Positions 27,626-52,101 of a stretch of DNA of 52,457 bases are shown piece by piece. The notes beneath the pieces are model-generated. The model made no database searches. It was not told the DNA's origin and saw only the letters and a program-made list of their open reading frames with translations. Origin of the DNA: Clostridia bacterium (GTDB lineage Bacteria > Bacillota > Clostridia > Oscillospirales > Acutalibacteraceae); NCBI GenBank assembly GCA_017471765.1, contig JAFURT010000030.1, positions 1 to 52,457 of the forward strand, written 5' to 3'. Position 1 is the stretch's first letter, and the number at the start of each line of letters is the position of its first letter. The translations under genes and the position numbers were made by a program.

Positions 27626-27659
27626 ATAATTTGTATATGTTTAAAAGAAGAGGTAAAAT

Positions 27660-28661: not shown

Positions 28662-28675
28662 ATACAGCTGCTCTC

Positions 28676-28708: not shown

Positions 28709-28711
28709 GTG

Positions 28712-29611
28712 TTAATCGTCGGAATGTAGCAGCTTGGTAATGATCCGCCCGATGAAAAAGGTCATCAGGAACAGCATCATGGATACCGCCGAAGCATAGC
28801 CCATCTGGAACCGGATAAAGGCGTAGTCATACAGGTGCGCCACCACGGTATGGCCAGCATAGTTAGGGCTGGGCAGTCCGGCGAACTGCACCGCCACGTC
28901 AAACACACCAAAGGAGTTGACGATGGACATGATGGCGCCGAACAGCAACTGGGGCTTCATCTGCGGTACAATGATGTACCACAGCTCGGACACGGGGTCG
29001 TTCAGACCGTCGATACGGCCCGCCTCCAACTGCTCCTTGGACAGATTCTGAAAGCCTGCCAAGAAGGTGAGAAAGCCGGTGCCCATACCCATCCAGATGG
29101 AAATGAAAATAATGACCGGCATAATGGTCTGATCCGATTGGTTCCACAAAATCGGCTCGCTGATAAGCCCGACGGACATAAGAATGTGGTTGACCCAGCC
29201 ATACTTATCGGAGGAGAAGAAATAGCCCCACACCGTTGTCATGGCAATGGCGCTGGTGATGGAAGGAGTGTACACCGCTAAGGCAAAGAAATTCTTTCCC
29301 TTCAGGTTGTTGATGACCCATGCCAGCAGGAAGGAGGCGATGTACCCTACCGGGCCCACCACCACCGCAAAGGTGAGGGTGTTTCTCAGCGAGGTGATAA
29401 ATACATCATCATCCAAGATCAGCTGACGGTAATTGGTAATGCCCACCCACTGGGGCGTCTCCAGCATGTTATAATTGGTAAAACTTAACCCAAGGCCAAT
29501 GATAATGGGTAAGATGGTAAATACGGTAAACAGGAGGAGAAAGGGCGCTAAAAAGGCATACCCAACCCGTCCCCGTTTCCACCATAAGGCCAGTTTACTG
29601 TTGCTTCTCAT
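28712..29611 (-). CDS. Sugar ABC transporter permease (MalF-type), last gene of the operon
   Basis: A 299-residue inner membrane protein with six hydrophobic helices. It has the MetI-like permease loop SKEQLEAGRIDGLNDPVSELWYIIVPQMKP (EAA motif, about residue 190) that docks to the ABC ATPase. The opening GYAFLAPFLLLFTVFTILPIIIGLGLSFTNYN is typical of CUT1 (oligosaccharide) permeases. The ATG at 29611 has AAGG 8 nt upstream. It is paired with the MalG-type permease 29 bp upstream. No ATPase gene is in the window, so a shared MsmK-type ATPase encoded elsewhere is presumed. Confidence 0.92.
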   Translation of the reverse strand: MRSNSKLALWWKRGRVGYAFLAPFLLLFTVFTILPIIIGLGLSFTNYNMLETPQWVGITNYRQLILDDDVFITSLRNTLTFAVVVGPVGYIASFLLAWVINNLKGKNFFALAVYTPSITSAIAMTTVWGYFFSSDKYGWVNHILMSVGLISEPILWNQSDQTIMPVIIFISIWMGMGTGFLTFLAGFQNLSKEQLEAGRIDGLNDPVSELWYIIVPQMKPQLLFGAIMSIVNSFGVFDVAVQFAGLPSPNYAGHTVVAHLYDYAFIRFQMGYASAVSMMLFLMTFFIGRIITKLLHSDD

Positions 29612-29640
29612 AGACAAACCTTGCCTTTCCCGAAAGGATA

Positions 29641-30567
29641 TTATTCGGCACTCAGGCCGGAGTGCTCCAGGCCCTGAATAAACTGTCGCTGCACCACACA
29701 GTACATCAGTAACATCACGGCAATGACCAACAGCGCCGCCGCCATCAGCACGCCACGGGTGATGATAGAATCGGCGTTGGTGGTCAACTCAGCAGAAGCC
29801 GCCAGATACTTCTCATAGATGGTGGGCAGCATTGCCGGCAGCGGCCACTGGGAGGATTTGCCTAGGTAGATGACCGGCTCGTAATAATCGTTCCAGTGCC
29901 ATACCACACTGAGCACAAAGCACACCAAAATAGAGGAACGCGCCGTGGGGAAGGCAATCCGGAAATAGGCCCCCATAAAGCTGCAACCGTCAATCTTTGC
30001 CGCATTTTCCAGATCCCGGGGCAGACCTATGAAGAACTGGCGGAACAGGAAGATCATGATGCCGCCTCGCAGGCCGAAGCCGAAGAAGCAGGGCACCATC
30101 AGCGGCAGATAGGTGTTCAGCCAGCCCATATCCGTATACGTCAGGTACAGGGGCAGGATAATAACCTGCGAGGGGATGATGATGGTCAGCACCACCAGCA
30201 CGAACCACAACCCCTTCAGCGGAAACTGATACCGCGCAAAGCCGTAGGCGATAAACGCACAGGACAGGATATGCCCCAGCGTACACACCGACACGATCAG
30301 CAAGGAATTCCAGATATGGGCGGAAAAATCCAGGTTGACAAAGGCTGCCCGCCAGTTCTGCCACTCAGCACCGGAGGGGATCCAGTTGATACTCACATCA
30401 AACAGATCCGCCTGGGATTTGATGGAGGTAACGATCATGTACAGAAAGGGGTACAGGAACATATAAGACATGATAATGAGGAAAACATAGATAAATATCC
30501 GGGACAGCTGTACTTTGTGCCGGAGGGCATTGCCTTTTTTGAGGAGAGTTTGCATTGTTGTGTTCAT
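29641..30567 (-). CDS. Sugar ABC transporter permease (MalG-type)
   Basis: A 308-residue CUT1 permease with six membrane helices and the EAA loop PRDLENAAKIDGCSFMGAYFRIAFP (about residue 190). The N-terminal helix SRIFIYVFLIIMSYMFLYPFLYMIVTSIKS is characteristic of MalG-type partners. It pairs with the downstream MalF-type protein (28712-29611) or with the upstream one (30580-31452), which ends 12 bp before it. The membrane position, operon context and lack of an ATPase match oligosaccharide uptake. Confidence 0.92.
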   Translation of the reverse strand: MNTTMQTLLKKGNALRHKVQLSRIFIYVFLIIMSYMFLYPFLYMIVTSIKSQADLFDVSINWIPSGAEWQNWRAAFVNLDFSAHIWNSLLIVSVCTLGHILSCAFIAYGFARYQFPLKGLWFVLVVLTIIIPSQVIILPLYLTYTDMGWLNTYLPLMVPCFFGFGLRGGIMIFLFRQFFIGLPRDLENAAKIDGCSFMGAYFRIAFPTARSSILVCFVLSVVWHWNDYYEPVIYLGKSSQWPLPAMLPTIYEKYLAASAELTTNADSIITRGVLMAAALLVIAVMLLMYCVVQRQFIQGLEHSGLSAE

Positions 30568-30579
30568 ACCGGCACCTCC

Positions 30580-31452
30580 TTAGCCCTGCCCCACAGTGCG
30601 GTTGACGATCCTGTTCATAAACAAGAACACCAACCCCAGCAACACCGCTACAAACAGGAAATAGATCCAGCTCAGCGCCGCCGCATAGCACACCTGGTTT
30701 TCGGAAAAGCATTTGTCCGTAAAATAGTTTATCATAGCGTTATTCACATCGCCGAAGCTGTCCACAATGGTATACACGATATTGAGGAAGATAATGGGGG
30801 TCATCATAGGCAGGGTGATCTTCCAGAAGATGTCCCATTCGGTGGCGGCATCCACCCGGGCAGCCTCATACAGCGCCGGGGAGATGCTCTGCAGGCCGGA
30901 CAGGAAGATGATGATCTGCACACCGGATTTCCACAGCACCGTGGAGATCCGGGAGAAAAATTCATCCACCACATTGACCACGCCCGGGCCTACCAGCTCC
31001 TTGATCTCGTCAGTGAGCAGCAGGTCCTTAGCCCCGGACACCGCCATCTGGTCAAGGCCCAGATCCAGCAGCACGCTCATCACGTAGCCAGAGCCCAGCA
31101 GAAAGGGTAGGAAGAAGACCACCCGAAAAAAGCCACGGCAGCGGATATTCCGACTGAGCATGATTGCCAGAATGAAGGAGAACACCAAAATCATGGGCGT
31201 ATTTACCAGCGTGTCGGTGATGACCTGCAGGAACTTAGGGATAAACTCCACATCCCCGGTGAAGGCATACACATAGTGCTTAAAGCCAACCAGCGTCATA
31301 TCGCTCAAGCCCACCATCTTAGTGACATCAGAAACGCTTAGCGTGATAGACCGGATGAGGGGAGAGAGGAAAAACAGGAAAAAACCAACGATAAAGGGAA
31401 GGATAAATATATAGCCTTCCAGCTTGTGCCGTGTATCTGAACGCAGTCTCAT
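30580..31452 (-). CDS. Sugar ABC transporter permease (MalF-type)
   Basis: A 290-residue permease. The family opening LEGYIFILPFIVGFFLFFLSPLIRSITLSVSD and the EAA loop ISPALYEAARVDAATEWDIFWKITLPMMTP (about residue 197) are clear; six helices are predicted. The ATG at 31452 overlaps the stop codon of the DUF5696-type gene by 4 bp, so translation is coupled. An extracellular loop of about 50 residues (GLDQMAVSGAKDLLLTDEIKELVGPG and on) is longer than usual and may touch a binding protein. Confidence 0.92.
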   Translation of the reverse strand: MRLRSDTRHKLEGYIFILPFIVGFFLFFLSPLIRSITLSVSDVTKMVGLSDMTLVGFKHYVYAFTGDVEFIPKFLQVITDTLVNTPMILVFSFILAIMLSRNIRCRGFFRVVFFLPFLLGSGYVMSVLLDLGLDQMAVSGAKDLLLTDEIKELVGPGVVNVVDEFFSRISTVLWKSGVQIIIFLSGLQSISPALYEAARVDAATEWDIFWKITLPMMTPIIFLNIVYTIVDSFGDVNNAMINYFTDKCFSENQVCYAAALSWIYFLFVAVLLGLVFLFMNRIVNRTVGQG

Positions 31453-33653
31453 GCTTTTCCTCCTTCCTGTACAACATAGCCGAGAGCCGGTATGGTAATC
31501 CCGTCCACCTCAACGGCCTCGCTGCTATAGTTCACGTACACCCGCACACCATTGCTGTAGGTCGTACAGAACAGCGTCTCTCCCAGCGCCTCGTGGGCAG
31601 TCATATAGGCATCCCAAACCTGCCCCAGGTCGCCGGAAAGCACCGTATATAACGCCTCTGCCTTGTCCAGATAGGCAGCGTAATAGGAGGAGAACAGGGT
31701 GTTGCTGGTGGTGCTCTTCAGCCCCTCGGAGCGCTCGTATGTGAGCTTGAAATACGGCATATAGCCGTATTCAATCAGCTTCAGCACCTGGGCGTCATAG
31801 TCATAAAACAGATTAGCAGGCTCGGTGGAGTAAGCAACGCTACCATGCACCACCATTTGATAGAAGGGCACCGACCGGTCAGACACGGAGAAGCCGGAAT
31901 CCGTCATGGGAATACCGTGTAGCCGGGATGCCCGGTTAAGCAGATACGCATTACCGCCGTAGACGGCGGAAGCGCCCACCGTCTCGTTGGCGGTGGCCAG
32001 CAGGTCGCTCCAGGAGGCGGCCATATCCCCTCGCTCCGTCAGATTGTTGCCCTGGTAGTCGTTATATAGGGTGCTGCCGAAACCCTCGAAGGCTACACCG
32101 GCCACACCGGCAGGCAATCGCTTGCTGTCAGCAGCAAACCACTTGTGGGCGCTGGCAGCGGTAAGTAAATATCGGCTGTCAATCAGATCTGTTACCGGCG
32201 AATTGCTCCGGTTGCGGATAATATCCCGCTTGATTGAGAATCGGGAGCCGTCCGCCGCCACGTCCACATAGTTCATATTCAGCCACACCCGGGCCCCCAA
32301 GGACTGGGCAAGCCCGGTCAGAGCATGCAACCCGGTCTTGCCGCCCGCCTGCCCATTAACTCGGTAATCAGCAGGCCATTGGCCGTAGCCGTCCTTGTTC
32401 CAGCCCTCCAGGGTAACATCAAAGGCCTTCACACCCCGGTCGGCCAACAACTGCAGAATTTCACCGCCCTCAGCGAACGTGGTCATGGACTGGTAATCGC
32501 TAATGAGCGCCTGAGTCATAGTGCCGATAAACAGGTCAAGTCCCAGCGGCACCTGGTCAGCGGCAGTGATACGGTCAACAAGTGCTCCGGTTTTTAGCAT
32601 ATACTCCCGTATCGCCACAGCCATATCGCTGTAGCTGCCCTCGCCGTCCAGTAGCAGATACCGTAGTTCCCGGTCGGCAGCGATGATCTCGTCGTCGATG
32701 TCGGTGAACTTGGACCGGGACTCCCCGTCGCCGTCCAGGTTGGTCACATACACATCGTAGGTGCGGCGGTAGATAAACTCACAGCAGATACGGTTACGCT
32801 TCACCGCCAGGGCACTGGTATACAGGTTTATCTTGGCATCCGTATCCCCCTCGGTGATAACGGCGGCAAAGCCGGAGCCATTCACCTGTGCACCAAACAC
32901 CGGTAGGAAGAAATTGCCGTTCTCCGCCATAGTGTAATCGGTGTTGGCCAGATATTCACTGCTACTGCCGTACACCAGCCAGCTATAGGATTTGGTGGCC
33001 AGCTTCTTCTCCGGCATCTTTTGGAACTCCATCAGAGCTCCGCTGCCATCGGGGTAGAAGAAATACCCTTCATCCGTATCAGCGGCGCTACCGAAGAACT
33101 GCATCACCTCCACCGAGGTGAGGATGGCGGTGCCGTATTCCCGCACCTCCGCCTGGGGAATGCGGCAAACAAGTTGGTTCCCCTCCACCCACAGGCAGAG
33201 AGCCAGTTCGATCTGCAGGGCCGTAAAATCATAGACAAATTTTACGCCGTTTTCAATGCGGTAGGCGGTGCATTTGGCCCCCGCCTGTACCGGGGTGGTG
33301 GACAGGATCTGCACGCTGGCGCTACTTTTTGAATAGCTGATTTTAATCAGAGATTGCACCGTGCCCTGCCAAATTTTGGTCAGTTCACTCACCGGGTAGA
33401 CCGCTTCTGTTAAAGTCGCATTCCAGGCAGTGCCGTTCTGCTTGTTCGCCACAGAAACGGTGCCGTCGCCAGCGGTAAGGGTGAGTTGCTCGCTTTCTCC
33501 CACCACCACCGGCGAGGAAATATTCAGCGTACCCGTTGTTGGTACCGCATCAAATGTTTTTTCGGTATCCGTTTGTTTCTCACCACAGCCGGCAAGCAAC
33601 AGACAGCCCATCAACAGGGTGCATACCGTAAACAGAGACAGAAAACGCTTCAT
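31449..33653 (-). CDS. DUF5696-type lipoprotein (putative glycan-active TIM-barrel protein)
   Basis: A 734-residue surface lipoprotein: signal peptide with lipobox LLAGC (Cys23), a beta-rich N-terminal half (about residues 45-340) with a GYFFYPDGSGALMEF segment, then a probable TIM barrel (about 360-700) containing AFDVTLEGWNKDGYGQWPADY, VWLNMNYVDVA and GVAFEGFGSTLYNDY. This pattern matches my recollection of DUF5696 proteins, which sit in clostridial and Paenibacillus sugar-transport clusters; their barrel recalls GH101/GH129-type enzymes, but no activity is established to my knowledge. The start at 33653 leaves 9 nt to GGGG; the ATG at 33659 is the alternative. The gene abuts the Yip1-type gene. 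Confidence 0.75.
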   Translation of the reverse strand: MKRFLSLFTVCTLLMGCLLLAGCGEKQTDTEKTFDAVPTTGTLNISSPVVVGESEQLTLTAGDGTVSVANKQNGTAWNATLTEAVYPVSELTKIWQGTVQSLIKISYSKSSASVQILSTTPVQAGAKCTAYRIENGVKFVYDFTALQIELALCLWVEGNQLVCRIPQAEVREYGTAILTSVEVMQFFGSAADTDEGYFFYPDGSGALMEFQKMPEKKLATKSYSWLVYGSSSEYLANTDYTMAENGNFFLPVFGAQVNGSGFAAVITEGDTDAKINLYTSALAVKRNRICCEFIYRRTYDVYVTNLDGDGESRSKFTDIDDEIIAADRELRYLLLDGEGSYSDMAVAIREYMLKTGALVDRITAADQVPLGLDLFIGTMTQALISDYQSMTTFAEGGEILQLLADRGVKAFDVTLEGWNKDGYGQWPADYRVNGQAGGKTGLHALTGLAQSLGARVWLNMNYVDVAADGSRFSIKRDIIRNRSNSPVTDLIDSRYLLTAASAHKWFAADSKRLPAGVAGVAFEGFGSTLYNDYQGNNLTERGDMAASWSDLLATANETVGASAVYGGNAYLLNRASRLHGIPMTDSGFSVSDRSVPFYQMVVHGSVAYSTEPANLFYDYDAQVLKLIEYGYMPYFKLTYERSEGLKSTTSNTLFSSYYAAYLDKAEALYTVLSGDLGQVWDAYMTAHEALGETLFCTTYSNGVRVYVNYSSEAVEVDGITIPALGYVVQEGGKA

Positions 33654-33655
33654 GG

Positions 33656-35722
33656 TCATGCACCCCTTTCCAGAGCATAGGTCACTTCGGTAAACACGGT
33701 ACGGATAAAGCCCACGAACTGGCCGCCCAGAGCATAAATGAGCAGAACGATCGCCCAGATCAGCAGCATAGCCAGCAGGGTGATAACGGTCACTAGTACC
33801 ATACGGCCAAAGAAATAGCCGTTAGCGTATTTGAGGCACCGCAGCAGCAGGACGATCGTCCACACCAGCATAATGCCGGTCAGCATGCTGTACAGGCCCT
33901 GCTCCCCCCGCCCCATAAGGCGGGACAGCAGCGCAATCGGCACCGAAAGTAGCATATATGGAACCGTCGAGATGGTGGACAGGGTGACGATCTCCCCGAA
34001 GGTGGCCTCTCCGCTGAAGATGGCGGTGACTGCGTACTGGGCGATCGCCCAGGTGAACAGCAGTGCCATCACCAGCAACCCCTGGGTCACCGGATTGACG
34101 TTCTCGGCTGCCGTGGTGGCCAAAGGATAACTGGTGAGCATCATTCCGCCCACATGGGCCACGATCAGCCCCACCCACATCAACAACAGTGAAGGCAGCT
34201 TAAGCCGCATCCGGTCACGCTTGACATAGAAGCATACCTCCTGGGGCTCCACCAGCATACACAGCAAAAGAGGCACAAAATAGAACACACGGGCCTTCAC
34301 CTGCCCCCGGAAATACCGACCACGCAGGACAACGGCGGCTTTTTTCAGCCCGATGACGGCAAAATATGCCCCCACCAGCAACACCACCGCCGCCAGCACG
34401 ATCCAGAAGAAATACGCACGGAAGATTTCATGCCGCTGTTTGGAGAAGGCGGTGGAATACCCAGCCTTATCGTTGGCCATGCGGTAGTAATCCATCGCCC
34501 CAGTATAGTCCTCTTCCTTCACCAGAATGCGGGCAATACCCTCATAGGCCAGGTCATAATTGCCGTCGATTGCCAGTACCGCCTCAAAGGCGGTTTTGGC
34601 CTCCTGGTATTTGCCTGCATTGTACAGGGCTACGGCGGCATGGACACTCTCAATAAAGGCGGTAGGCTCATACACAACGATTGCACCCATCTGGGAATCC
34701 AGTACGTAAATATTGCCGGTGCTGTCCACATCCACCGCTACAGGGATAGAGAACTGGCCCTTCTTCTTGCCGATGCCATAGCCGAATACCGCCAGCAGAT
34801 TGCCGTCGGCGTCGTACTGATATAGCTTGCCGGTGTGCTGCTCAAGAGCCGTCACCACCGACTGGCTGTCGGCCGTGATGTCCGCAAAATAGGGAGCCAC
34901 TGTGTTGCCATCGGCATCCACGGAATTTTCACCGTAAAACACGGCCGGAAACATGTTCGCACCCGTTACATCCAGCTTCATGACCTGTCCGCTGGCGCTG
35001 TCGGTGGTGGTGGCATACAGCTCGCCGTCCCGGGCCAGGGCAAAGCTCAGGTAGGGGGGCGGCTCCTGATTGAGCAGCTTCGCTTTCTGTTCCTTCGAGG
35101 CAAACAGGCGGATAAACATATTTTTCAGGCTAAACGCCAACGTTGTGGCGCCAATATACCCCTGGAACGTGTTGTTGGCATCGATTTTCATCAAGGCTTT
35201 TTCCTTGATGGTATATAGGTAGCCGGTATCCGACACGGCAATACGCCGGGGGGAATAGATAAAATCCTTGCCCAGCACATCCGACTCCGGCACCCCAAAC
35301 TCCTCGATGTATTCTCCCTCGGCAGACAGATGCAGAATGCGCTTGTTGCCGGTATCGCCGATGTACAGGCTGCCGTCGGTATCGCAGAATACACCGCCGG
35401 GGGCATCCAACGCCCGCTTATCCTCCCCGTCAAAGCGCAGCACCCGCACCGTCTCCCACTTATCATTCAGAACGAGAATAGCATTGTTGCCAGTATCGGC
35501 GATATACACGTAGTTGTTTGCATCGACGTACAGATCCTCCGGCACCAGCAGTTCGCCGTGGTCGCCGAAGAGGGAGATGGTCTCTTTGTACACATACGCC
35601 TGGGACAGGGCCAGCTTTTCCCCATCATCCAGCAGGTAGTCGGTGCCGGCACTCACCGGCAGCACGCCCAGCAAGGTCACCAGGCACAGCAGCAGGGCTG
35701 TTATACGAAAATACAGTTTCAT
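33656..35722 (-). CDS. NHL-repeat/TPR/Yip1 membrane protein (probable glycan or envelope sensor)
   Basis: A 688-residue mosaic. After a signal peptide (residues 1-25), extracellular NHL beta-propeller blades repeat the pattern P-x-x-L-x-V-D-x-x-x-x-x-Y-I-A-D-T-G-N-x-x-I (about 55-350: EDLYVDANNYVYIADTGNN, GGVFCDTDGSLYIGDTGNK, VAVDVDSTGNIYVLDSQ). A TPR-like helical pair follows (AAVALYNAGKYQEAKTAFEAVLAI, about 358-420), one membrane helix (about 438-460) and a four- to five-helix Yip1-type domain (about 500-688). An outside propeller linked to a polytopic membrane domain suggests sensing or coupling rather than catalysis. Yip1-family proteins with this build recur next to DUF5696 and sugar permeases, as here. 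Function is unknown. Confidence 0.78.
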   Translation of the reverse strand: MKLYFRITALLLCLVTLLGVLPVSAGTDYLLDDGEKLALSQAYVYKETISLFGDHGELLVPEDLYVDANNYVYIADTGNNAILVLNDKWETVRVLRFDGEDKRALDAPGGVFCDTDGSLYIGDTGNKRILHLSAEGEYIEEFGVPESDVLGKDFIYSPRRIAVSDTGYLYTIKEKALMKIDANNTFQGYIGATTLAFSLKNMFIRLFASKEQKAKLLNQEPPPYLSFALARDGELYATTTDSASGQVMKLDVTGANMFPAVFYGENSVDADGNTVAPYFADITADSQSVVTALEQHTGKLYQYDADGNLLAVFGYGIGKKKGQFSIPVAVDVDSTGNIYVLDSQMGAIVVYEPTAFIESVHAAVALYNAGKYQEAKTAFEAVLAIDGNYDLAYEGIARILVKEEDYTGAMDYYRMANDKAGYSTAFSKQRHEIFRAYFFWIVLAAVVLLVGAYFAVIGLKKAAVVLRGRYFRGQVKARVFYFVPLLLCMLVEPQEVCFYVKRDRMRLKLPSLLLMWVGLIVAHVGGMMLTSYPLATTAAENVNPVTQGLLVMALLFTWAIAQYAVTAIFSGEATFGEIVTLSTISTVPYMLLSVPIALLSRLMGRGEQGLYSMLTGIMLVWTIVLLLRCLKYANGYFFGRMVLVTVITLLAMLLIWAIVLLIYALGGQFVGFIRTVFTEVTYALERGA

Positions 35723-35735
35723 CCCAGCACCCCCT

Positions 35736-36617
35736 TTATTTAATGCCGCTGTAGGCCATCGTCTCGATGACCTTGCGCTGCATCAGCAAAAACACGATGA
35801 CCACCGGTAGAACCATCAGGAAGGAGGATGCCGCCACTGCGCCGGAACGGGCCAAAGCGGCACTGCCCACGCCACCGGCGATGGATTGCAGCGCCAGCGG
35901 CAAGGTCTTCATGCTGTCCTTGGTAGTGTACACCAGGGCGGAAAAATAGTCGTTCCACGCAGAGGTGAAGGAGAACATCACCAAGGTGGAGATAACCGGG
36001 CGCAGCATAGGCATAATGATGCGGAAGAATACCCCCAGCTCAGTGGCGCCATCCAGGCGGGCGGACTCCAGCAGGGAATTAGGAACCTGCCCCATAAACT
36101 GCTGCACCAGGAAAAAGTTGAAGGCCACCGCCACCTTGGGCAACACCAGCGCCCAGAAGGTGTCCATCAGCCCCAGGCCATTGACGATCATAAAGGTGGG
36201 GATGGTGGTCACCTGCGGCACTACCATCAAGGAAGCCACCACGATACCGCTGATGACCGAGGCGCCGGGAGGGGTATGCTTCACCAGCCCAAAGGCACCC
36301 ATGGAGCAAACCAGCGTGGTGAGAATGACGATGAGCACCGTCACCAGCACACTGTTAAACAAATACCGCACAAAGGGGGTATCTGCGCTTTCTAAAGAGG
36401 AAAACAGGTCAAAAAAGTTGTTGACGGTAGGGTTTTCTACATAGAACTGGGGCGGGAATTTGTACAGCTCCTCCAGTGGCTTAAAGGCAGTGACGATGAC
36501 ATACACCATCGGCAGCGCCATAAAGGCCACCAGCGCCAACATGAACAGATATACCACTATCCGTCCGGGCGACACCCGCCGCAGACGGCGTATAACGGTT
36601 TTTTGCAGATTTTCCAT
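35736..36617 (-). CDS. Sugar ABC transporter permease (MalG-type)
   Basis: A 293-residue CUT1 permease with six helices. The EAA loop is PNSLLESARLDGATELGVFFRIIMPMLRP (about residue 185), and the N-terminal helix reads GRIVVYLFMLALVAFMALPMVYVIVTAFKP. The ATG at 36617 has AAAGGA 8 nt upstream, and the gene lies 15 bp behind the large solute-binding protein gene. It most likely pairs with the MalF-type permease at 30580, separated from it by the Yip1-type and DUF5696-type genes, an unusual split of a permease pair. Confidence 0.92.
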   Translation of the reverse strand: MENLQKTVIRRLRRVSPGRIVVYLFMLALVAFMALPMVYVIVTAFKPLEELYKFPPQFYVENPTVNNFFDLFSSLESADTPFVRYLFNSVLVTVLIVILTTLVCSMGAFGLVKHTPPGASVISGIVVASLMVVPQVTTIPTFMIVNGLGLMDTFWALVLPKVAVAFNFFLVQQFMGQVPNSLLESARLDGATELGVFFRIIMPMLRPVISTLVMFSFTSAWNDYFSALVYTTKDSMKTLPLALQSIAGGVGSAALARSGAVAASSFLMVLPVVIVFLLMQRKVIETMAYSGIK

Positions 36618-36632
36618 GGTCACTGTCCTTTC

Positions 36633-39557: not shown

Positions 39558-39590
39558 ACGGATACTCCTTGCCAAAAAACGGTGGGGGAA

Positions 39591-39622
39591 GGGGCCACTG
39601 CCACCGATATAGCAGTGGCCCC
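39591..39622 (-). promoter_or_regulatory. Intercistronic hairpin upstream of the large solute-binding protein gene
   Basis: GGGGCCACTG and CAGTGGCCCC pair exactly around a 12-nt loop, 34 bp before the ATG of the 974-aa gene on the minus strand. The RNA lacks a U tract, so I read it as an mRNA stabiliser or weak attenuator rather than a terminator. Confidence 0.6.
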
Positions 39623-39651
39623 TGCTTACGTTGTTCTATTCGTTTGAGGGA

Positions 39652-40794: not shown

Positions 40795-40809
40795 GATACT
40801 CTCTCCTTT

Positions 40810-42702: not shown

Positions 42703-42716
42703 TGGATGTCCTCCTC

Positions 42717-44351
42717 TTACTTCAACGCATTGTTTACTTCCGTGGTGATCTGGTCGCCTCCCATGCGCTTCCATTCCGCCACAAAGGTGTCGAAATAGTC
42801 GATGGGCTTTTCACCGGTGATAATGGCCTGGAAGGTCTCGTTCTCAAAGGTGAGAAGCTGCGCCCAGTAGGTGTTCATGCCGGCGGTGTTGGCACCACCC
42901 CAGGCGTTGCGGATGTAGTTGTCGGTGGAGAAATAGTTTTCATACACCGCCTCTAAGGCGCCGCCGGGGCCGTACACGATGTTCATGGACCAGTCGTCCT
43001 TATTTTCCGAACCGTTTACCCGGTAGTTCTGCATGGAGTCGAACCGTTCCTTGTACAGCTGGTTGAGGGAGCTGGTGTCGCCCGAGGCCAGCACATCCTT
43101 AAATTTGAGATACATATTCATGTTTTCATTGGCGTTGCTCAGCTTGGGATAGAAATAGTTGTGCAGCTCAATGCCCGATTCAGAGACGCCAAAGGTGGAA
43201 TACTCGTTGTCGATTTTATCGGTATACATATTAAACAGCTTCATTACGGCGTCGGGATGCTGGCAGGCACTGGTGATATACCAATAGGTGTTGGCCGCCG
43301 TCTCGATCTGACTGGGAGCTACCTCTCCGGTAGCCGAAGGCAGGGGACAAGCTACCCATTCGCCGCCGGTCTTTTTCCAGGCGTTCTTGATCAGTACGCC
43401 GGATACATAGTTTGCCATGGCCACGCCCATACGGTTGTAGCCCATCAACTCCACGATACGGTCGTCGCCGGCATTGTAGTAGGTGGGGCTGATGTAGCCC
43501 AGCTTATACCAGTTCGCCAGCGTTTGCAGGGCTGTTTTCATCTCCGGCTGAATAGAGCTGTAAGCATATTTGCCATCCTTCTCTGTCCAGATTGCTTTGT
43601 AAGCACCAAGACTGTTCATCAGGCCCTTGATGCTGCCCGTCCAGGCCTCATTACTGACGCCCAGAGGGATGTAGTTGTCCTCGCCGGTGCCGGCGGGGTC
43701 ATCCTCCTTAAAGGATTTCAGCACCGCCTCCAGATCGTCAATAGTGCGGGGAATATCCAGGCCCAGATTATCCAGCCAATCCTTGCGAATCCACATGATG
43801 TAGGCGTTGGACTCGTGGCCGGCGGGCTGGACAATGCCGAAACGGCGGCCGTTCACCGTCACCAGCTCCTGTGCGGCACCGTTATCGCTGGCCAGGATGG
43901 CCTTGTTCGCCTGGGACAAGTACTGGTCGGCATAGTCGGTGATGTCTTTCAGCTGACCTTCCTTATGCAACCAATCAAAATTATCCGCCGTGCCGAAGAA
44001 ATAGTCCGGCATATCGCCCGAGCTGAGCATAAGCTGGAACTTCTCCGCATATTCGGAATTGGGTACCGTCCATTTGTAGGTGATCTTGATGTTATACTCT
44101 TCCAACGCCTGACGGGTCCAGACGTTGTCCTCGATAGAATCGCCATTCTCAAAGGTTATGTTGGATGCCAGGCCGCGGATAGTGGTAACCTCCACTACCT
44201 CGTCGTACTTCTTGCCGCCGGGCGTGTCGTATATAGAGTCAGTGCCGGTATCCGGTGTGCCGGATACATCGCCGCTACCCCCATTACAGCCCGCTGCAAA
44301 GGTCAGAATGATCGCTAAAACTGCCATCAGCGCAATCAATCGCTTATACAT
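42717..44351 (-). CDS. ABC transporter solute-binding lipoprotein
   Basis: A 544-residue lipoprotein with signal peptide and lipobox FAAGC (Cys22), followed by a type-1 solute-binding fold (EYNIKITYKWTVPNSEYAEKFQLMLSSGDMPDYFFG, residues about 65-100; NAYIMWIRKDWLDNLGLDIPRTIDDLEAVLKSF, about 185). The length matches the large CUT1 binding proteins for complex oligosaccharides (about 500-560). AGGAGG precedes the ATG at 44351. It should serve the MalF/MalG permeases further down the same operon; two binding proteins and two permease pairs are present. Confidence 0.92.
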   Translation of the reverse strand: MYKRLIALMAVLAIILTFAAGCNGGSGDVSGTPDTGTDSIYDTPGGKKYDEVVEVTTIRGLASNITFENGDSIEDNVWTRQALEEYNIKITYKWTVPNSEYAEKFQLMLSSGDMPDYFFGTADNFDWLHKEGQLKDITDYADQYLSQANKAILASDNGAAQELVTVNGRRFGIVQPAGHESNAYIMWIRKDWLDNLGLDIPRTIDDLEAVLKSFKEDDPAGTGEDNYIPLGVSNEAWTGSIKGLMNSLGAYKAIWTEKDGKYAYSSIQPEMKTALQTLANWYKLGYISPTYYNAGDDRIVELMGYNRMGVAMANYVSGVLIKNAWKKTGGEWVACPLPSATGEVAPSQIETAANTYWYITSACQHPDAVMKLFNMYTDKIDNEYSTFGVSESGIELHNYFYPKLSNANENMNMYLKFKDVLASGDTSSLNQLYKERFDSMQNYRVNGSENKDDWSMNIVYGPGGALEAVYENYFSTDNYIRNAWGGANTAGMNTYWAQLLTFENETFQAIITGEKPIDYFDTFVAEWKRMGGDQITTEVNNALK

Positions 44352-44386
44352 TGACAGACCTCCTTTTCATTGACAAAAGCACTGCC

Positions 44387-44413
44387 CTGTGAGGGCATAG
44401 ATCACCCTCACAG
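44387..44413 (-). promoter_or_regulatory. Intercistronic hairpin upstream of the solute-binding lipoprotein gene
   Basis: CTGTGAGGG, a 9-nt loop and CCCTCACAG, 36 bp before the lipoprotein start on the minus strand and just after the phosphatase gene. No clear U tract follows. Confidence 0.6.
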
Positions 44414-44430
44414 GTACACAGTCGTCTTTA

Positions 44431-45834
44431 TCAGGTATACTCGATCAGGTTTTTCTTGATAGCCGCCAACTCTGCCTCGGTCATGCCAATATCCAGCAGA
44501 TATTTGGTGACATTCTGCTGCCAGTTGCCGGTGGAATACTTATCGATTCCCTTTACCAGCGGAAGGAAGAAATTAGAATGCATCACCGAAGGCTTGTGGT
44601 CGCCGTTGGCGGAGAAGAAGGACAAATCATACTCCCGGAAGATGTCCTCCTCGCTCATGCCACACAGTGCCTGCAGCAGGAAGGCCACCGTGCCGGTGCG
44701 GTCACGGCCTACCGAGCAGTGGAACAGGATGGGATAATTATCTTCATCCGCAAACACACGCATGATCTTCACCAAAGCTGCGTGGTTGGACTCCAGGTAG
44801 ATGCTACCATCGCTCTGGCCGTAGTAAGGAGAGGAGATGTTGATATAGTTCACCGTCGGCCCCAGTGAGCTGGTGCCGGAATTGCCCTCATCCGGCTTGC
44901 GCAGATCCAGCTCCGTCTTGACCTTCAGTACGTTGAGACTGTAATCGATGCCCTTTTGGGTTATGTTGTCCAACAGCCCGGTGCGGAATAGCATCCCCTG
45001 CTTCATCCGACCACCGTCTGCAGTCTTCCAGCCGCCCATATCCCGGGTATTGGTCACGCCCTCGATGTAGACGGTACGGGGGGTGGCGGCGGTGGTGAAG
45101 GAATATACGTCACTCTTCACCTTATCGCCCCACACCTTCCAATAATAGGTGGTGCCGCCCTTGAGGCCGTCCAGCACCAGCGACTTACCGGTGACCGTAT
45201 AGGCCTCTGCGTTAGCAAAGCGGTTGTTCTCTGCCAACAGCAACGTATAGCTACTGTCATCTCCCTCCCAGGCAAAGGTCACCTTGGCCGGTGCGTATTT
45301 GTCGCTCAGCAGGTCAAAGTACTTATCGCAACCGGTGAGAGTGTACTCCTCCGATACAAAGGAGAGAATGAGATCGTTCGTAATCTGCACATTCTTTGTG
45401 CCGTTGGCGGGGGTCTTCAAGGCAATCTCCACCTTCCAGTTGGCATCCTCTGCGGGAGCAGAGGCAGTTGGCGTAGTCGATTTTTGGGTAGTCGTAGTCC
45501 CCTTGGCGGTAGTCTGCTTGCCAGTGGTGGTTGCCGTCCCACCGCCAGTCTTGGTAGGCACTTTGGTTCCGCCCTGACCGGTTGTTTCCGTTTTACCGGC
45601 AGAATCCGTGCCGCCGGTAGTGGCGTCGGTCTCCTCCAAAGGGGGCGCGCTATCCGTTGTCGTCCCGTCACCGTCCTGTGCAGAGGGGGCGGTAGTGGTG
45701 GTCACGGAAGAGTTATCGGAAAATGGCTCCTCCCCGCCGTCTGAGACGGCAGGGGTGCCGCCGCAGGCGGTCAGCACAAGGCCGAATGCCAGCAGCAAGC
45801 AGACACAGGATACCCATTTACGAAAACGAAACAT
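44431..45834 (-). CDS. Lipoprotein tyrosine-phosphatase-like enzyme with Ser/Thr-rich linker
   Basis: A 467-residue surface lipoprotein: lipobox LTAC (Cys24), a long Thr/Ser/Lys linker (about 25-135, like the linker of the neighbouring lectin protein), a beta-sandwich (Big_5/Fn3-like, about 140-245, KTPANGTKNVQITNDLILSF ... TYYWKVWGDKVKSDVYSF), then a Y_phosphatase3/IphP-type domain. The family N-motif VTNTRDMGGW (about 255) and the active-site loop HCSVGRDRTGT (CX5R, Cys about 372) are intact. Such enzymes hydrolyse phosphotyrosine, phosphoinositides or inositol phosphates. A cell-surface phosphatase inside a sugar-import operon is odd; it may remove phosphate from an extracellular substrate. 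Confidence 0.85.
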   Translation of the reverse strand: MFRFRKWVSCVCLLLAFGLVLTACGGTPAVSDGGEEPFSDNSSVTTTTAPSAQDGDGTTTDSAPPLEETDATTGGTDSAGKTETTGQGGTKVPTKTGGGTATTTGKQTTAKGTTTTQKSTTPTASAPAEDANWKVEIALKTPANGTKNVQITNDLILSFVSEEYTLTGCDKYFDLLSDKYAPAKVTFAWEGDDSSYTLLLAENNRFANAEAYTVTGKSLVLDGLKGGTTYYWKVWGDKVKSDVYSFTTAATPRTVYIEGVTNTRDMGGWKTADGGRMKQGMLFRTGLLDNITQKGIDYSLNVLKVKTELDLRKPDEGNSGTSSLGPTVNYINISSPYYGQSDGSIYLESNHAALVKIMRVFADEDNYPILFHCSVGRDRTGTVAFLLQALCGMSEEDIFREYDLSFFSANGDHKPSVMHSNFFLPLVKGIDKYSTGNWQQNVTKYLLDIGMTEAELAAIKKNLIEYT

Positions 45835-45854
45835 CTTTTGTCCTCCTCCAGAGT

Positions 45855-48800
45855 TTATTTCGCCTTGGCAGTGCGGCGGGTAGCCAGCACCACAGCCAGG
45901 GCGGCCAACAGCAAGACCATAATGGGTAGCACAGAAGCGCTACCGGTATCGGGAGAGGTGTTGTCATCATCCGCAGGCGGGGTGTTCTCGGTAATCTCCT
46001 CGTCGGTCTCAACCAACGAGAAGGAGCCGCCTGCAACAGCCTTGAAGGATACACGAGCACCCTTGACTGCAACCACAGCGGTGGCCGTGGTGCCATTGTC
46101 GTAGGTCATAGTGACCTTATAGCGGTCGCCGTCCTTTGCGCTGTCGGGCAGGTCTACGGTGACAATGTACTCGCCATCGGAGCCCAGCTCATAGGCCTCA
46201 AAGGTCAGCCAATCCTCAGCCGCCAGATCAAAGGCAATACCGTTCTCTGCCTGATAGTTATCCAACAAGATGTGGACATAATAGGGCAGGGTCTCACCGC
46301 CGATGGTGACGCCATTCTCGCTACGGAGCAACGCATACACCTGCCGGCGCACGGTGGCCAGATCCGCCACCGCTTCATCGGAGACCAACGCCTGCTGTGC
46401 CTCGGTCAGAGCCTCCCAGGCATCGATCACGATCAGGGCATCATACAGGTTGTCCTCGTTGACCTCGGTACCGAAAGCGGCGATGTCCTTTTCAAACTCG
46501 ATGGAGTCATAGGTCAGCTCCACAGCTGCCAGGAACTCGTTGATAGCCGCCTGCATAGCATCCTTAGCAGCAGAAGCCTCCGCAAAGGTCACGTCGGGCT
46601 TGGCCTTTACTGCCTCGGCGGTAGCGATGGCCGCACGTAGAGCCTCAAAAGCGCTGGCAGGGGCACGGTTCTCCTCGGTCTCGGCCAGCAACGTTTCCGC
46701 CTGTTGGATGAGGGTGTTCAGCGCGCCAAAAGAAACCTTAGCGCCGGTAGTATCCTGATAGACATCCACCTCACCGTAGGCGCCATTGGTGTACAGGTTC
46801 ATGGTCACGGTGTTGCCGCCTCCCAGCAGACGGTCAAAATCAGACCAGATACCCTCGTACTCGTTGACGATCAGATCCTTGCCGTCCAGCGTGAAGTACC
46901 AGCTACCATCGGCGTTGCGACCCAGCTTGAACTCCGCCCACTCGCCATCTTTGAAGTCCTTGAAGGCGTCAGCGAAGCTATCGCCGGCCAGTGTGCCGGT
47001 GAAGAGCTGCTTGTTCTTGCCTTCACCGTCCCATCCCTTGCCGGAAACGCTCTCCACCACACGGATATCTGCCTTGTAGTCCAGCCAGAACACGGCACAG
47101 ACGCCGTCGCCAGCCAGACGGTTGGCTCCGCTGTTGGAGAAGACCAGCGAAAACCACTCGAAATTCTGAGAAGGATCCACACACACCTTAAAAGTGAGAT
47201 TGACGGGGTTGACCACCGTATTGACCTGGCTGCCGGCGATGGGGAGCACCGCATGAATCGTCTCGGCATCCAGATTTTCAAAAGTCGCACCGTTCTGCGC
47301 CAGCCAGTCGAAGGCAATGGGGGTATCGTCCACCACCACAGCGGAGGCAAAACGGGATACCACATCGGTCAGCTCTGCCAGCATCTCGTCCAACATCGCC
47401 TGGGTTACGCCCTGAGTGCGGTAAACCTTGATAGCCTTATCAATGGCCGCCTTCATCTCGTCATAGTTGGCCTGCGGCACCTGACCGGGGGCGGTACCCA
47501 CGCTAGCCTTGGCAAACATATTCTGAGCAGACTGGAGAATGGTCGCCAGGTCACCGAAGTTACAGGATTCCACAACGGCCGCCTTGAAGGTGTCGATAGC
47601 TCCCTGCAGGTCGTCGATGGCGGCGGTGATCACAGAAGCAGAGGGATCCTTGCTCTCCGCCACAGCCACAGCCGCCTTACCGGCCACAGCCAAAGCATCC
47701 TTGGCCTCCTGAGAGACCTGACCGTAGTTCACACCTACGGTGGTGTTGTTATACAGATTCTTGGCCACCTGAATCTTCAGATCCAGCTTAGCCAGGTCGC
47801 CATCGGAGGCGCCACCTTCGTCCGCATCTGCCAGATCACGGATCTGCAGGTTGCCGGTGTGTCCGTTGGCACCAATGACAATATAACCTGTCTCGCCGTC
47901 CAGCAGACCGTTCAGGGTAGCCAGGTTATCGGCGTCGATTCCATCCAGCATCTCGGCACCGTCCACCTTGATGGACCACTGACCGGAGGTCTTACTAATG
48001 GATACCTTGTGCCACACATCATCGTTGACCAGCGCCGTAGCGATGCCGCCCACACGATTGACCCAAGGGGCGTTGTTCCAGCCGGCGGCCTCGGTCTGGG
48101 TAATCAGACGGGCTTCAGCTGATCCGTCTGTCTTAGCCAGCACCTTCAAACCGGTGCCATGGCAGAAATCATAGAAGAAATCATCCCCCTCGGGGAACAC
48201 TGCGGCGGCATTACCGATGTTCATGAAGAACCAATCCTGAATACCGGACGCCTTGTACTCGAACTCCACGCCTGCCTCCAGATTGCCTGTCATGTAGTGG
48301 CTGTTGGTAATGCCTACGGTAGAGTAGACATCCGTCTCCAGATCATACGTCCACGCCTCGCCACGGGAAGAGAAGTTCAGCCCGCCAGACGCAACAGAGC
48401 CGGAATCACCACCCGCCGCATTCTCGCGGATGCTCACGTTGCCGGTGTGTCCGTTGGCACCAATGACAATATAACCTGTCTCGCCGTCCAGCAGACCGTT
48501 CAGGGTAGCCAGGTTAGCGGCATCCATTCCCTCCAGCATATCCACGCCGTCCACCTTGATGGACCACTGACCACTGGCCTTGCTGATGGATACCTTGTGC
48601 CAGGTGGTGCCGTCATGGAAGTTAGCCGCCACGCCGGACTTCATGTTCTTCCAAGGAGCCCCGTTCCAGCCAGCGGCCTCAGTCTGGGTGATTAGACGAG
48701 CTTCCGCAGAGCCGTCGGTCTTGATCAGCAGTTTCAAACCGGTGCCATGGCAGAAATCATAGAAGAAGTCATCCCCCTCGGGGAACACCGCACTGGCGTT

Positions 48801-51662
48801 ACCGATGTTCATGAAGAACCAATCCTGAATGCCGGAGGACAGGAACTCGAATTCCACGCCTGCCTCCAGATTGCCTGTCATGTAGTGGGTGTTAGTGATG
48901 CCCACAGTGGAGTACACCTTAGTCTCCATATCATAGGCCCAAGCCTCGCCGCGAGAGGCGAAGGTCAGCTCGCCCTCGGGAATGACGGGGGTGTCCGGCT
49001 GGTCGCCGGTTGCTTTGATCTCCCGGACTTGCAACGCGCCGGCATAGGCGTTAGAACCGATGACGATGTAGCCCATTTCGCCGTCCAGCTTGCTATTCAG
49101 GGTTTCCAGGTTAGCGGCATCGATATTGTCCAGCAACTCGCGCCCGTCAATCTTCACCGACCACTTGCCGGAGGCCTTGCTGATGGATACCTTGTGCCAC
49201 ACATTATCGTTGACCAGCTTGGAAGCAATGCCGCCCACCGTATTCTTCCAGGGGGCGCTCTCCCAACCGGCAGACTCGGTCTTGGTGATCAAACGGGCCT
49301 CGGCGGCGCCGTCCGTCTTTGCCATCACCTTCAGGCCGGTGCCGTGGCAGAAGTCATAGAAGAAGTCGTCGCCAGCCGGGAACACGGCGTCGGCGTTACC
49401 GATGTTCATAAAGAACCAATCCTGGATGCCGGAGGCTTTATACTCGAACTCCACACCCTCTTCCAGGTTGCCCGTGATGTAATGGCTGTTGGTGATGCCT
49501 ACGGTGGAGTACACATCGGCCTCCAGATCGTATGCCCACGCCTCGCCACGGGAGCCGAAGGTCAGCTTGCTCTTTGCCGGAACATCCTCGTCGGTGGCCA
49601 CCTTCACGCTGAAGGCACCGGTGCCACTGGCAGAGTAGAAGGTGAGGAAGGTGGCAGCGCCGCCCACCAGCTCGGTCATATCCCCATCGAAGCCCGCATA
49701 GGCGTTCTTGGAGATGCAGGTGCCATCCACATAGATGTCCCACTCACCGAAGTTGTTGGTGATCCGCAGGGTGTGCCAACCGCTGTTCAATGCGGTAACG
49801 GCAGGGCCGTCATGCAATGTCTGGGTAGCTGCAGCGGATTCCCAGCCAAAGCCTTCATAGCCATTGACCATACGGGCGGTCACATTGCCATTTGCCCACA
49901 GTAGAGTGCGCAGACCCACGCCCTCGCCCAGGGTAGAGGCCGCCCGGTTATCCACCGAGATGCCCAGCCAGTCGCCCACATTCTCGTCAATGCGGAAGGC
50001 GATCTCCAGGTCGTTGCCCTGATAGCGGGTGTAGGCGGTGTTACCGGTTGCGGACAGGGTGATGGCGGTGATGCCGGTCTCCTCGTCCAGCTGGGTAGCC
50101 GCAGCAGAGCCGCTGAAGTCCAGCGCACTGATAGCACTGGCGTTATACGCCGGAGCTGCCGGAAGCACACCTGTAGTGCGGTAGATGTCGTGGGTTTCCG
50201 CTGTGTCCACATATGTGTCCAGATTTTCCGGCGTCCACTCGAAATACACCAAATAGGCCTCGGGGGCCTCGCTGAAATCTGCAGCGTTGGTGTACAGGTC
50301 GATCATGGGCCAACGGGAGCGCACATGCTCACGCAGCACCATCGCCGTGGCCTTGGCGGTACCGGCAGCAGAAGTAACGATCACATCCGGCACGGGATAG
50401 ATGCCTCGCAGGCCACCGTCCTTCTCCTCCTTGGACACCTCCGGCAGGCTGTCAGCAGGCACAGAGACCCAGCCGGACAATTTGTTGGAGCCACTGTTCA
50501 GCATGGCGGCGCCGGAGAAGGCCAGCTCGCCCACCTGGATAGTCAGGTTGGCATCGCTGCTCTTGGTATAAGAACCGCCGTATGTAATGATGCGGCTGTC
50601 GCCCACGCTGTCCCAGCCGAACTGCAGAACGAAATCGTCCTCAGCCGCCTCGGAATAGGCAATGCTCTTGTTGTCGCGGGCCAGGTTGCCGTAAATACGG
50701 CCATCCTCACCGTAGGTAATAAAGGTCAGGTAGTCCATACCGGTGGAAACCGGCTCGATGGCTCGGGTACGGGGGTCATAGCGGGCGACCAGGGAGGAGT
50801 TGCCGTTATCCCAGGCGTTGCCCTCGCCGGTGAGCAGTACATAGCCGTACTCGTCAATGGCCAGGCCACGGGAGCGCCATACATACTGGTTGTTATTACC
50901 TGCTACTCGCTCAACAGAGCCGTCGGTATTGATCTGATACAGTGTGCCGCCACGAATAGCCACACCGATCAGCGGCACATCCGTAGCAACACTGTAGGTC
51001 AACGCATACACTACGCCGGTCTTATCAACCGCTACGCTCTGCAGGCCGCCCAGACCGGAAGCCACCACGGTCACCTCGCCGGTAGCCTTTTCCCACTTCT
51101 TGATGACGCCGTTCTCACAGGCAACATACACATTGTCGCTGCCGTCAACAAAGCAGTCGTTGGGACGCACCAGATCGGGGATGATCTTCGTGGTGGTGCC
51201 GGCTGCCAGGTCATAAAGTCCCACGTAGCCGCCCTCGTCATAGCAAACACAATAGGCCAGCTTGTCATCGCTGGTCATGGCCAAGCCGAAGATAGCGCCG
51301 GTCTCCATTTTGATGGTCTCTTCCTCAGACAGCAGGGAAATATACCCAAAAGCATCCTTATACCGGACAGAGATGGTTCCCTTGCTATAAGAAGAGGTGT
51401 ACAGGTTGCCCTTCGAGTCCATAGCGGTACCGAAGGAATAGGTGGCGCTGTCATCCACCACAAAATAGCCGTAGGGCAGGCCGTCCTTCAGGCCCTGGTC
51501 ATACCCTTCGGGCAGAGTCTTGTCTGTGTTGATGCTGGGGTCAATAATGGGGTCTGTTCCTGCAATGACCGCCGAGGACATCAGCGGAAACTGAGCCAGC
51601 ACCAAGCCAAAGCAGGCCAGTATACTCAGCATCGACAGACCAAGCTTAAATCGTTTTTTCAT
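45855..51662 (-). CDS. Giant sortase-anchored surface protein with beta-propeller and five lectin-like modules
   Basis: A 1935-residue cell-wall protein. Order of parts: signal peptide (1-33); SMP-30/NHL-like beta-propeller (about 45-350: VRPNDCFVDGSDNVYVACENG, RGLAIDEYGYVLLTGEG); a lectin-like module (about 511-690); three ~195-residue lectin-like repeats beginning FxSRGEAWxYDxExxVYSTVGIT (about 697, 897 and 1090); two FIVAR-like helical segments (about 1287-1445); a fifth lectin-like module (about 1450-1645); another helical segment (about 1645-1780); a beta domain (about 1790-1885); and the sorting signal SPDTG (about 1903), hydrophobic stretch and RRTAKAK. ATG 51662 follows AAGGAGTGA. It is the first gene of the 23-kb operon, behind a ~200-nt leader. 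Predicted role: multivalent glycan capture. Confidence 0.85.
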   Translation of the reverse strand: MKKRFKLGLSMLSILACFGLVLAQFPLMSSAVIAGTDPIIDPSINTDKTLPEGYDQGLKDGLPYGYFVVDDSATYSFGTAMDSKGNLYTSSYSKGTISVRYKDAFGYISLLSEEETIKMETGAIFGLAMTSDDKLAYCVCYDEGGYVGLYDLAAGTTTKIIPDLVRPNDCFVDGSDNVYVACENGVIKKWEKATGEVTVVASGLGGLQSVAVDKTGVVYALTYSVATDVPLIGVAIRGGTLYQINTDGSVERVAGNNNQYVWRSRGLAIDEYGYVLLTGEGNAWDNGNSSLVARYDPRTRAIEPVSTGMDYLTFITYGEDGRIYGNLARDNKSIAYSEAAEDDFVLQFGWDSVGDSRIITYGGSYTKSSDANLTIQVGELAFSGAAMLNSGSNKLSGWVSVPADSLPEVSKEEKDGGLRGIYPVPDVIVTSAAGTAKATAMVLREHVRSRWPMIDLYTNAADFSEAPEAYLVYFEWTPENLDTYVDTAETHDIYRTTGVLPAAPAYNASAISALDFSGSAAATQLDEETGITAITLSATGNTAYTRYQGNDLEIAFRIDENVGDWLGISVDNRAASTLGEGVGLRTLLWANGNVTARMVNGYEGFGWESAAATQTLHDGPAVTALNSGWHTLRITNNFGEWDIYVDGTCISKNAYAGFDGDMTELVGGAATFLTFYSASGTGAFSVKVATDEDVPAKSKLTFGSRGEAWAYDLEADVYSTVGITNSHYITGNLEEGVEFEYKASGIQDWFFMNIGNADAVFPAGDDFFYDFCHGTGLKVMAKTDGAAEARLITKTESAGWESAPWKNTVGGIASKLVNDNVWHKVSISKASGKWSVKIDGRELLDNIDAANLETLNSKLDGEMGYIVIGSNAYAGALQVREIKATGDQPDTPVIPEGELTFASRGEAWAYDMETKVYSTVGITNTHYMTGNLEAGVEFEFLSSGIQDWFFMNIGNASAVFPEGDDFFYDFCHGTGLKLLIKTDGSAEARLITQTEAAGWNGAPWKNMKSGVAANFHDGTTWHKVSISKASGQWSIKVDGVDMLEGMDAANLATLNGLLDGETGYIVIGANGHTGNVSIRENAAGGDSGSVASGGLNFSSRGEAWTYDLETDVYSTVGITNSHYMTGNLEAGVEFEYKASGIQDWFFMNIGNAAAVFPEGDDFFYDFCHGTGLKVLAKTDGSAEARLITQTEAAGWNNAPWVNRVGGIATALVNDDVWHKVSISKTSGQWSIKVDGAEMLDGIDADNLATLNGLLDGETGYIVIGANGHTGNLQIRDLADADEGGASDGDLAKLDLKIQVAKNLYNNTTVGVNYGQVSQEAKDALAVAGKAAVAVAESKDPSASVITAAIDDLQGAIDTFKAAVVESCNFGDLATILQSAQNMFAKASVGTAPGQVPQANYDEMKAAIDKAIKVYRTQGVTQAMLDEMLAELTDVVSRFASAVVVDDTPIAFDWLAQNGATFENLDAETIHAVLPIAGSQVNTVVNPVNLTFKVCVDPSQNFEWFSLVFSNSGANRLAGDGVCAVFWLDYKADIRVVESVSGKGWDGEGKNKQLFTGTLAGDSFADAFKDFKDGEWAEFKLGRNADGSWYFTLDGKDLIVNEYEGIWSDFDRLLGGGNTVTMNLYTNGAYGEVDVYQDTTGAKVSFGALNTLIQQAETLLAETEENRAPASAFEALRAAIATAEAVKAKPDVTFAEASAAKDAMQAAINEFLAAVELTYDSIEFEKDIAAFGTEVNEDNLYDALIVIDAWEALTEAQQALVSDEAVADLATVRRQVYALLRSENGVTIGGETLPYYVHILLDNYQAENGIAFDLAAEDWLTFEAYELGSDGEYIVTVDLPDSAKDGDRYKVTMTYDNGTTATAVVAVKGARVSFKAVAGGSFSLVETDEEITENTPPADDDNTSPDTGSASVLPIMVLLLAALAVVLATRRTAKAK
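47810..49580. repeat. Three ~590-bp direct repeats inside the giant surface-protein gene
   Basis: Units of about 590 bp start near 47810, 48400 and 48985. Long blocks are nearly identical at DNA level, for example 47848-47935 and 48439-48523 (encoding TGYIVIGANGHTGN), and 48150-48240 against 48740-48830. This points to recent tandem duplication and possible repeat-number variation by recombination. Confidence 0.8.
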
Positions 51663-51870
51663 CGTATCACTCCTTGCTTAGAAATCGGCTATACTTAAAC
51701 GCTGTGTGCCACCGGCCACGGCGCAACGGACTATATACGTTCTATCCCTCCTTCTTGCGTTCGCCCGGATAAAACAGAACGCCGCCAAAGCGGTCATTCA
51801 CGCCATCTGGTGACCGTTTCGGTAGGGGTCCCTTTTCCCTCCGGGAAAAGAGTTTTCTTCTTCTCCCCCT

Positions 51871-52083: not shown

Positions 52084-52101
52084 TGAGCTTTACAAGGGGA
52101 A

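Follow-up and report, generated by a model that had tools for sequence, protein, structure and literature searches.

Importers of the CUT1 type, such as MalEFGK2, MsmEFGK and UgpABCE, consist of a binding protein, two permeases and an ATPase, and polysaccharide utilization loci of Gram-positive bacteria combine a glycosidase, a transporter and a regulator in one locus. We analyzed a stretch of 52,457 nucleotides from a Clostridia bacterium of the Acutalibacteraceae (contig JAFURT010000030.1 of assembly GCA_017471765.1), hereafter called the window. A preliminary description, made from the letters of the DNA, had singled out a run of 12 genes at positions 28712 to 51662 as an undescribed 23-kb operon for glycan capture and import. 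On balance, we regard the core of this run (28712 to 39575) as a probable twin CUT1-type ATP-binding cassette (ABC) importer cassette for oligosaccharides from plant-type glycans. Its eight components form two blocks: block A comprises the solute-binding protein SBP980 and the permeases P1 and P6, and block B comprises NHL, Yip1 and DUF5696 proteins, which would be dedicated extra parts, and the permeases P3 and P2.

The cassette resembles CUT1 importers in its MalF/MalG-type permease pairs with EAA loops and its CUT1-type solute-binding domains, and it would share with them the use of a separate MalK/MsmX-type ATPase. It differs from them by its two permease pairs, its three dedicated extras (NHL/TPR, Yip1 and DUF5696), and a solute-binding protein with a stalk and two domains resembling carbohydrate-binding modules (CBM). 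The CUT1 importer type itself is known; what appears new is CUT1 importers with uncharacterized, probably dedicated subunits. The window also fits the above definition of a Gram-positive polysaccharide utilization locus, with a GH36-type enzyme, a GH127-like protein, permeases and a LacI-type regulator. In comparison with such loci, however, the enzymes here change by locus while the eight-component importer is constant, and to our knowledge SBP980, NHL-Yip1 and DUF5696 are not among the parts of those described so far. The likeness to SusCD of Bacteroidota, where surface glycan-binding parts also sit beside a dedicated importer, is one of idea only: the proteins and the envelope are different, and a complex of the cassette's products would be hypothetical. 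In the open-access literature we found no paper on DUF5696 and, among the titles listed, none on a combination of NHL-Yip1 with an ABC transporter, although papers using locus tags only would escape such a search. In this respect the system appears undescribed, as first proposed.

Twelve minus-strand open reading frames (ORFs) fill positions 28712 to 51662, and their coordinates in the ORF list agree with the preliminary description. In the order of transcription they encode a giant LamG/FIVAR protein, a phosphatase, SBPa, a GH36-type enzyme, LecB, SBP980, P6, NHL/TPR-Yip1, DUF5696, P3, P2 and P1. By longest ORF, the spacing between genes is -58 to 79 bp; it becomes 94 bp between LecB and SBP980 if the latter begins at ATG 39557, its probable start, so that the gaps of under 95 bp originally reported hold. 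SBP980 (36633 to 39575) matches PF01547 (E value of 2.4e-21) and CBM35 models. Its AlphaFold2 model (pLDDT of 87.7) has two CBM6/35-like domains, a helical stalk, an amphipathic helix and a CUT1-type solute-binding domain, and its top Foldseek matches include maltose-, cello- and beta-1,2-glucooligosaccharide-binding proteins.

All four permeases match PF00528 (BPD_transp_1). Their best NCBIfam models are UgpA/GlcT or UgpE/GlcU, all under the equivalog cut-offs, and EAA loops are present in each of them in alignments of 15 to 16 sequences. P6 (35736 to 36623) and P2 (29641 to 30567) are of the MalG/UgpE type, and P1 (28712 to 29617) and P3 (30580 to 31452) of the MalF/UgpA type. P3 is the most divergent: it scores 41.7 bits against the NCBIfam model that fits it best, versus 78 to 105 for the other three, and its EAA loop is slightly degenerate. 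Upstream of P3, and overlapping it by 4 bp, lies the gene of the DUF5696 protein (31449 to 33659; E value of 4e-150), whose window copy has a lipobox, as expected of the lipoprotein first described. It is preceded by a gene (33656 to 35722) that fuses an NHL propeller and TPR, predicted to be extracytoplasmic, to a Yip1-type membrane domain, with a signal and six hydrophobic segments. P1 is displaced to the end of the operon in the window and adjoins P6 in most relatives. The earlier proposal that the Yip1 and DUF5696 genes sit inside one split permease pair is therefore borne out by orthology for P6 and P1, but a complete second pair, P3/P2, also lies inside.

The genome (1.92 Mb) contains seven DUF5696 genes, and each of them, including that of the window, is found within a complete SBP980-P1-P6-NHL-Yip1-DUF5696-P3-P2 set. 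P1 is shifted behind P2 in the window and in one other copy (L010), and some copies have an NHL-Yip1 fusion and others a gene of its own for Yip1, as is the case in many relatives. A scan for DUF5696 with one genome per species yielded 330 relatives, the best 80 of which were kept as named loci. They come from records of Paenibacillus, Cohnella, Lachnospiraceae, Oscillospiraceae, other Clostridia, Limnochordaceae and Chloroflexi. Of these 80 loci, 63 contain all eight components. In the other 17, to judge from the tables, the missing genes are those on the side of a contig end; the exceptions, L072 and L088, are two block-B-only loci (L189 and L184) found again, with identical P3. This recurrence, seven times in one genome and in many bacteria, makes the poorly known parts look like real components of the importer.

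We also searched 299 genomes of the phylum with other baits, the counts being those among the matches listed per genome. DUF5696 was detected in 33 genomes at an E value of ≤ 0.001, and in 26 over the Pfam cut-off. P3, with a limit of ≤ 1e-60 fixed beforehand, marked the identical 26 genomes. The SBP980 N terminus matched in 38 genomes (E value of ≤ 0.001), 27 of them above 300 bits; to these strong matches we added one cut by the contig start (G103). DUF5696 is present in 26 of these 28 genomes, and the exceptions, G104 and G154, sit on contigs of about 4 kb. The remaining ten comprise five genomes of family f15, at 123 to 177 bits, and five marginal ones. The 48 strong SBP980-anchored loci divide into 31 with all eight components, 6 with block A alone and their flanks covered, and 11 that are mostly truncated by a contig edge or by the edge of the stretch taken. 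Five of the A-only loci (family f62) share neighbors and look orthologous, and the sixth (f47) has different neighbors. Conversely, NHL, Yip1, DUF5696, P3 and P2 occur together in 20/20 P3-anchored loci, with block A absent from 19 of them, and block B stands ahead of block A in L022 (repeated as L146), L026, L143 and L147.

Several loci depart from the common layout. In L139 (G082:C150), one of the 11 above, a single gene call separates P2 from the SBP980 gene that comes after it, and P1/P6 were not recognized beside SBP980. In L129 (G152:C1, about 8862 to beyond 11074), the cassette is complete but for P6, whose match is split into two parts with starts some 2 kb from each other, as though an insertion had interrupted the gene. 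L176 (G007:C9) is a different arrangement built from block A parts: relatives of P1/P6 and of the SBP980 N terminus lie with two MalK-type ATPases, separate CBM-like proteins, a radical-SAM/SPASM protein and a TPR protein, in a stretch without DUF5696. Two whole cassettes are plasmid borne. That of Butyrivibrio fibrisolvens pNP243 (243 kb; L199) lies with a histidine kinase/response regulator and a GH43 gene. That of a Paenibacillus cellulosilyticus plasmid (L200), headed by ugpC, lies beside several LLM flavin-dependent oxidoreductases and further solute-binding proteins, odd surroundings for a polysaccharide importer. In these plasmid records the NCBI labels the genes singly, as "NHL repeat-containing protein," "YIP1 family protein" and "DUF5696 domain-containing protein," and the Yip1 counterparts on both carry the second of these names.

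The DUF5696 and P3 genes overlap or lie at most 20 bp apart (longest ORF) in 130 of 136 loci, or in 127 of 133 after removal of duplicates. Matrices of pairwise distance, one for each of the eight components, show correlations of 0.83 to 0.93 over 97 complete loci, and likewise over 82 without near-duplicates. Because species history could produce such a correlation across genomes, we tested the seven copies inside the one genome. All 28 component pairs correlate, at 0.59 to 0.93, and between 1 and 107 of the 5040 permutations did as well. The cassettes thus appear to have been duplicated and retained as units. The preliminary description had named intact homologous loci without Yip1 and DUF5696 as evidence against it. 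The outcome is mixed: SBP980-P1-P6 loci lacking both do exist (the six A-only loci), but P3/P2 are missing there too, which indicates that the Yip1 and DUF5696 genes go with the P3/P2 pump rather than with P6/P1. There are two blocks, and NHL-Yip1-DUF5696 belong with P3/P2 and not with the flanking P6/P1 pair. In the loci whose coverage allows it to be judged they stay with P3/P2, and they have diverged in step with the permeases, which supports the view that they are not passengers.

Each block has the look of a full CUT1 importer, and a twin importer could work as follows. Block A would form one importer, in which SBP980 holds the glycan at the wall and feeds P1/P6; its two carbohydrate-binding domains on a helical stalk could keep glycan near the wall. 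Block B would be another importer, one to which three extra parts are dedicated. Among these, Yip1 would be a multi-span membrane subunit packed against P3/P2, and the NHL propeller and TPR, fused to or paired with Yip1, would provide an extracytoplasmic scaffold that docks DUF5696 and a solute-binding protein. DUF5696, an exported and presumably non-catalytic protein of the GH129 fold, would bind glycan and pass it to a solute-binding protein or the pore. Both pumps would be powered by an MsmX/UgpC-type ATPase encoded elsewhere; one OB_MalK ATPase was found in the genome. The cassette is of a CUT1 lineage, found seven times in one genome, with three further components very tightly linked to one permease pair. 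If the extras are working subunits, they would provide a first function in transport for DUF5696, bacterial Yip1 proteins and NHL/TPR receptors, and an instance of a glycosidase fold recruited as a component of a transporter. The cassette may also serve as a marker for glycan importers across Bacillota, with substrates readable from the changing neighbor enzymes. A more ambitious version, which we find doubtful though conceivable, joins all eight components into one envelope-associated supercomplex, in which the Yip1-anchored NHL/TPR scaffold would link the two permease pairs, and SBP980 and the pseudo-glycosidase DUF5696 would serve as receptors. In its logic, such a complex would be what Gram-positive bacteria have in place of surface glycan uptake like that by SusCD, with bacterial Yip1-type proteins as ABC importer subunits.

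DUF5696 consists of a beta-sandwich, a TIM barrel and a C-terminal domain, which is the fold of GH129. The relation of that family to GH101 is taken from PMC8106489. DUF5696 differs from GH129 (NagBb, ZgGH129) and, more distantly, from GH101 by the lack of an invariant acid pair and of a PF11308 match, and by its place beside importer genes. In the Pfam search with an E value of ≤ 0.001, only PF18952 was matched, and PF11308 (GH129) was not. No D or E of the barrel is invariant among 85 sequences: the best kept are E630 (82/85), which the model places in a helix, and D534 (75/85), and D204 (79/85) is in the N-terminal sandwich. The positions preceding the N-x-Y motif differ as well (S, T, E, D, Y and others). 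Conservation thus argues for a probable pseudo-glycosidase that would have lost catalysis. These features make it unlikely that DUF5696 is instead an active GH129/GH101-type exo-glycosidase that trims oligosaccharides at the membrane ahead of import, the rest of the twin importer being as proposed.

Block B might alternatively be a sensor, in which P3/P2-Yip1-NHL-DUF5696 detects external glycan and controls uptake or expression while P1/P6 perform transport. NHL and TPR are modules for interaction, the cassette of B. fibrisolvens pNP243 comes after a two-component system, and block A is able to stand alone. However, P3/P2 retain the EAA loops that couple permeases to the ATPase, and a solute-binding-type gene lies directly 3′ of P2 in 9 of the 18 B-only loci tested, which fits a pump; we consider a sensor quite improbable. 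The divergence of P3, and the role of eukaryotic Yip1 proteins in vesicle budding, for which our source is PMC6682643, would suit a P3/P2-Yip1 unit that handles other cargo, for example by exporting or flipping a cell-envelope glycan, and merely shares an operon with a sugar importer. The permeases are nevertheless of the importer type (UgpA/UgpE models) with EAA loops, and the neighbors are often solute-binding proteins and degradative enzymes, so we give this very little credence. That Yip1/NHL and DUF5696 merely hitchhike in an ordinary CUT1 operon with no common mechanism is highly improbable even though their interaction is deduced rather than directly evidenced, given the linkage in distant genomes, the intact block B despite rearranged orders (L022, L026 and L143) and the correlated divergence of the paralogs.

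Some observations weigh against a twin importer with dedicated subunits. DUF5696 itself served as the bait for the 80 named loci, a bias that the SBP980- and P3-anchored sets correct in part only. In the five f15 genomes, SBP980-like genes occur but DUF5696 does not exceed its cut-off, and the 6 of 48 strong loci with block A alone show that A does not need B. The probable loss of activity of DUF5696 is argued from conservation alone, and a lipobox-like motif is present in only 20 of the 85 proteins. NHL and TPR were found as first described, but the accompanying Yip1 match in the window, at 26.9 bits, is slightly under the Pfam cut-off of 28.6. Finally, the genome is 78.6% complete, so more ATPases may be missing from the assembly.

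The 23-kb operon does not hold as a single system: the giant wall protein, the phosphatase, the GH36-type enzyme and LecB are outside the recurring cassette. The five upstream genes do not recur as a set, and the only one of their kinds that does recur is a solute-binding-like gene, before SBP980 in L010 and L008. The individual proteins are nevertheless much as first described. The giant surface protein (45855 to 51662) has LamG and FIVAR domains and, at its C terminus, what we take to be a PDTG-type sorting signal. LecB (39652 to 40794), a LamG-like surface protein with a C-terminal transmembrane segment, is 31% identical to part of it. The surface phosphatase is a tyrosine-phosphatase-like lipoprotein (44431 to 45834; PF13350, Y_phosphatase3, E value of 2.2e-33) with a lipobox read in its sequence. 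Left unnamed in the preliminary description was the GH36/melibiase-type glycosidase (40810 to 42774), which has no hydrophobic signal segment and matches PF02065 (E value of 4.9e-26) and solved alpha-galactosidases (E value of 4e-22). SBPa (42717 to 44351), tentatively a second solute-binding-like lipoprotein of ordinary size, gave no match itself in the Pfam search; the gene that lies upstream of SBP980 in L010 is 26% identical to it (E value of 4e-30), and an L008 gene that has SBP_bac_1 is similar to it (E value of 1e-7).

Two strong minus-strand stem-loops occupy the two widest gaps of the operon, each ahead of a solute-binding-type gene: one before SBP980 (39560 to 39655; -35 kcal/mol, z of -3.5) and one before SBPa (44360 to 44435; -31.8 kcal/mol, z of -4.7). 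They are possibly mRNA processing or stabilizing elements that set stoichiometry, and the former may alternatively be attenuating. Terminator-like patterns, counted on both strands and in coding sequence, number 31 in 34500 to 52457 versus 13.0 in shuffles (standard deviation of 3.4), and in 27400 to 36700 they are not above shuffles (8 versus 9.7). Because of the stem-loops and this excess, a single transcript for the 12 genes is not established.

The gene ahead of SBP980 encodes a solute-binding protein in 32 of 58 loci. The flanking genes include diverse glycan-active enzymes that vary by locus, so the importer looks like a general chassis. Convergent with the operon of the window is a LacI-type regulator (27660 to 28661, plus strand; PF00356 and PF00532). 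Beyond it, on the minus strand, lie a GH127-like gene (25915 to 27669), followed by a fucose/arabinose-isomerase-like gene (24327 to 25769) and a xylose-isomerase-like TIM-barrel gene (23408 to 24304). The GH36-type, GH127-like and pentose-isomerase-like neighbors suggest arabinose/galactose-bearing glycans as the substrate in the window. The three genes at 23408 to 27669 are likely a pentose catabolic set. Elsewhere, the window contains a spoIIE gene and plus-strand ATP synthase genes (10688 to 16739), whose beta-like subunit (15300 to 16739) matches the V/A-type C-terminal domain model PF22919.
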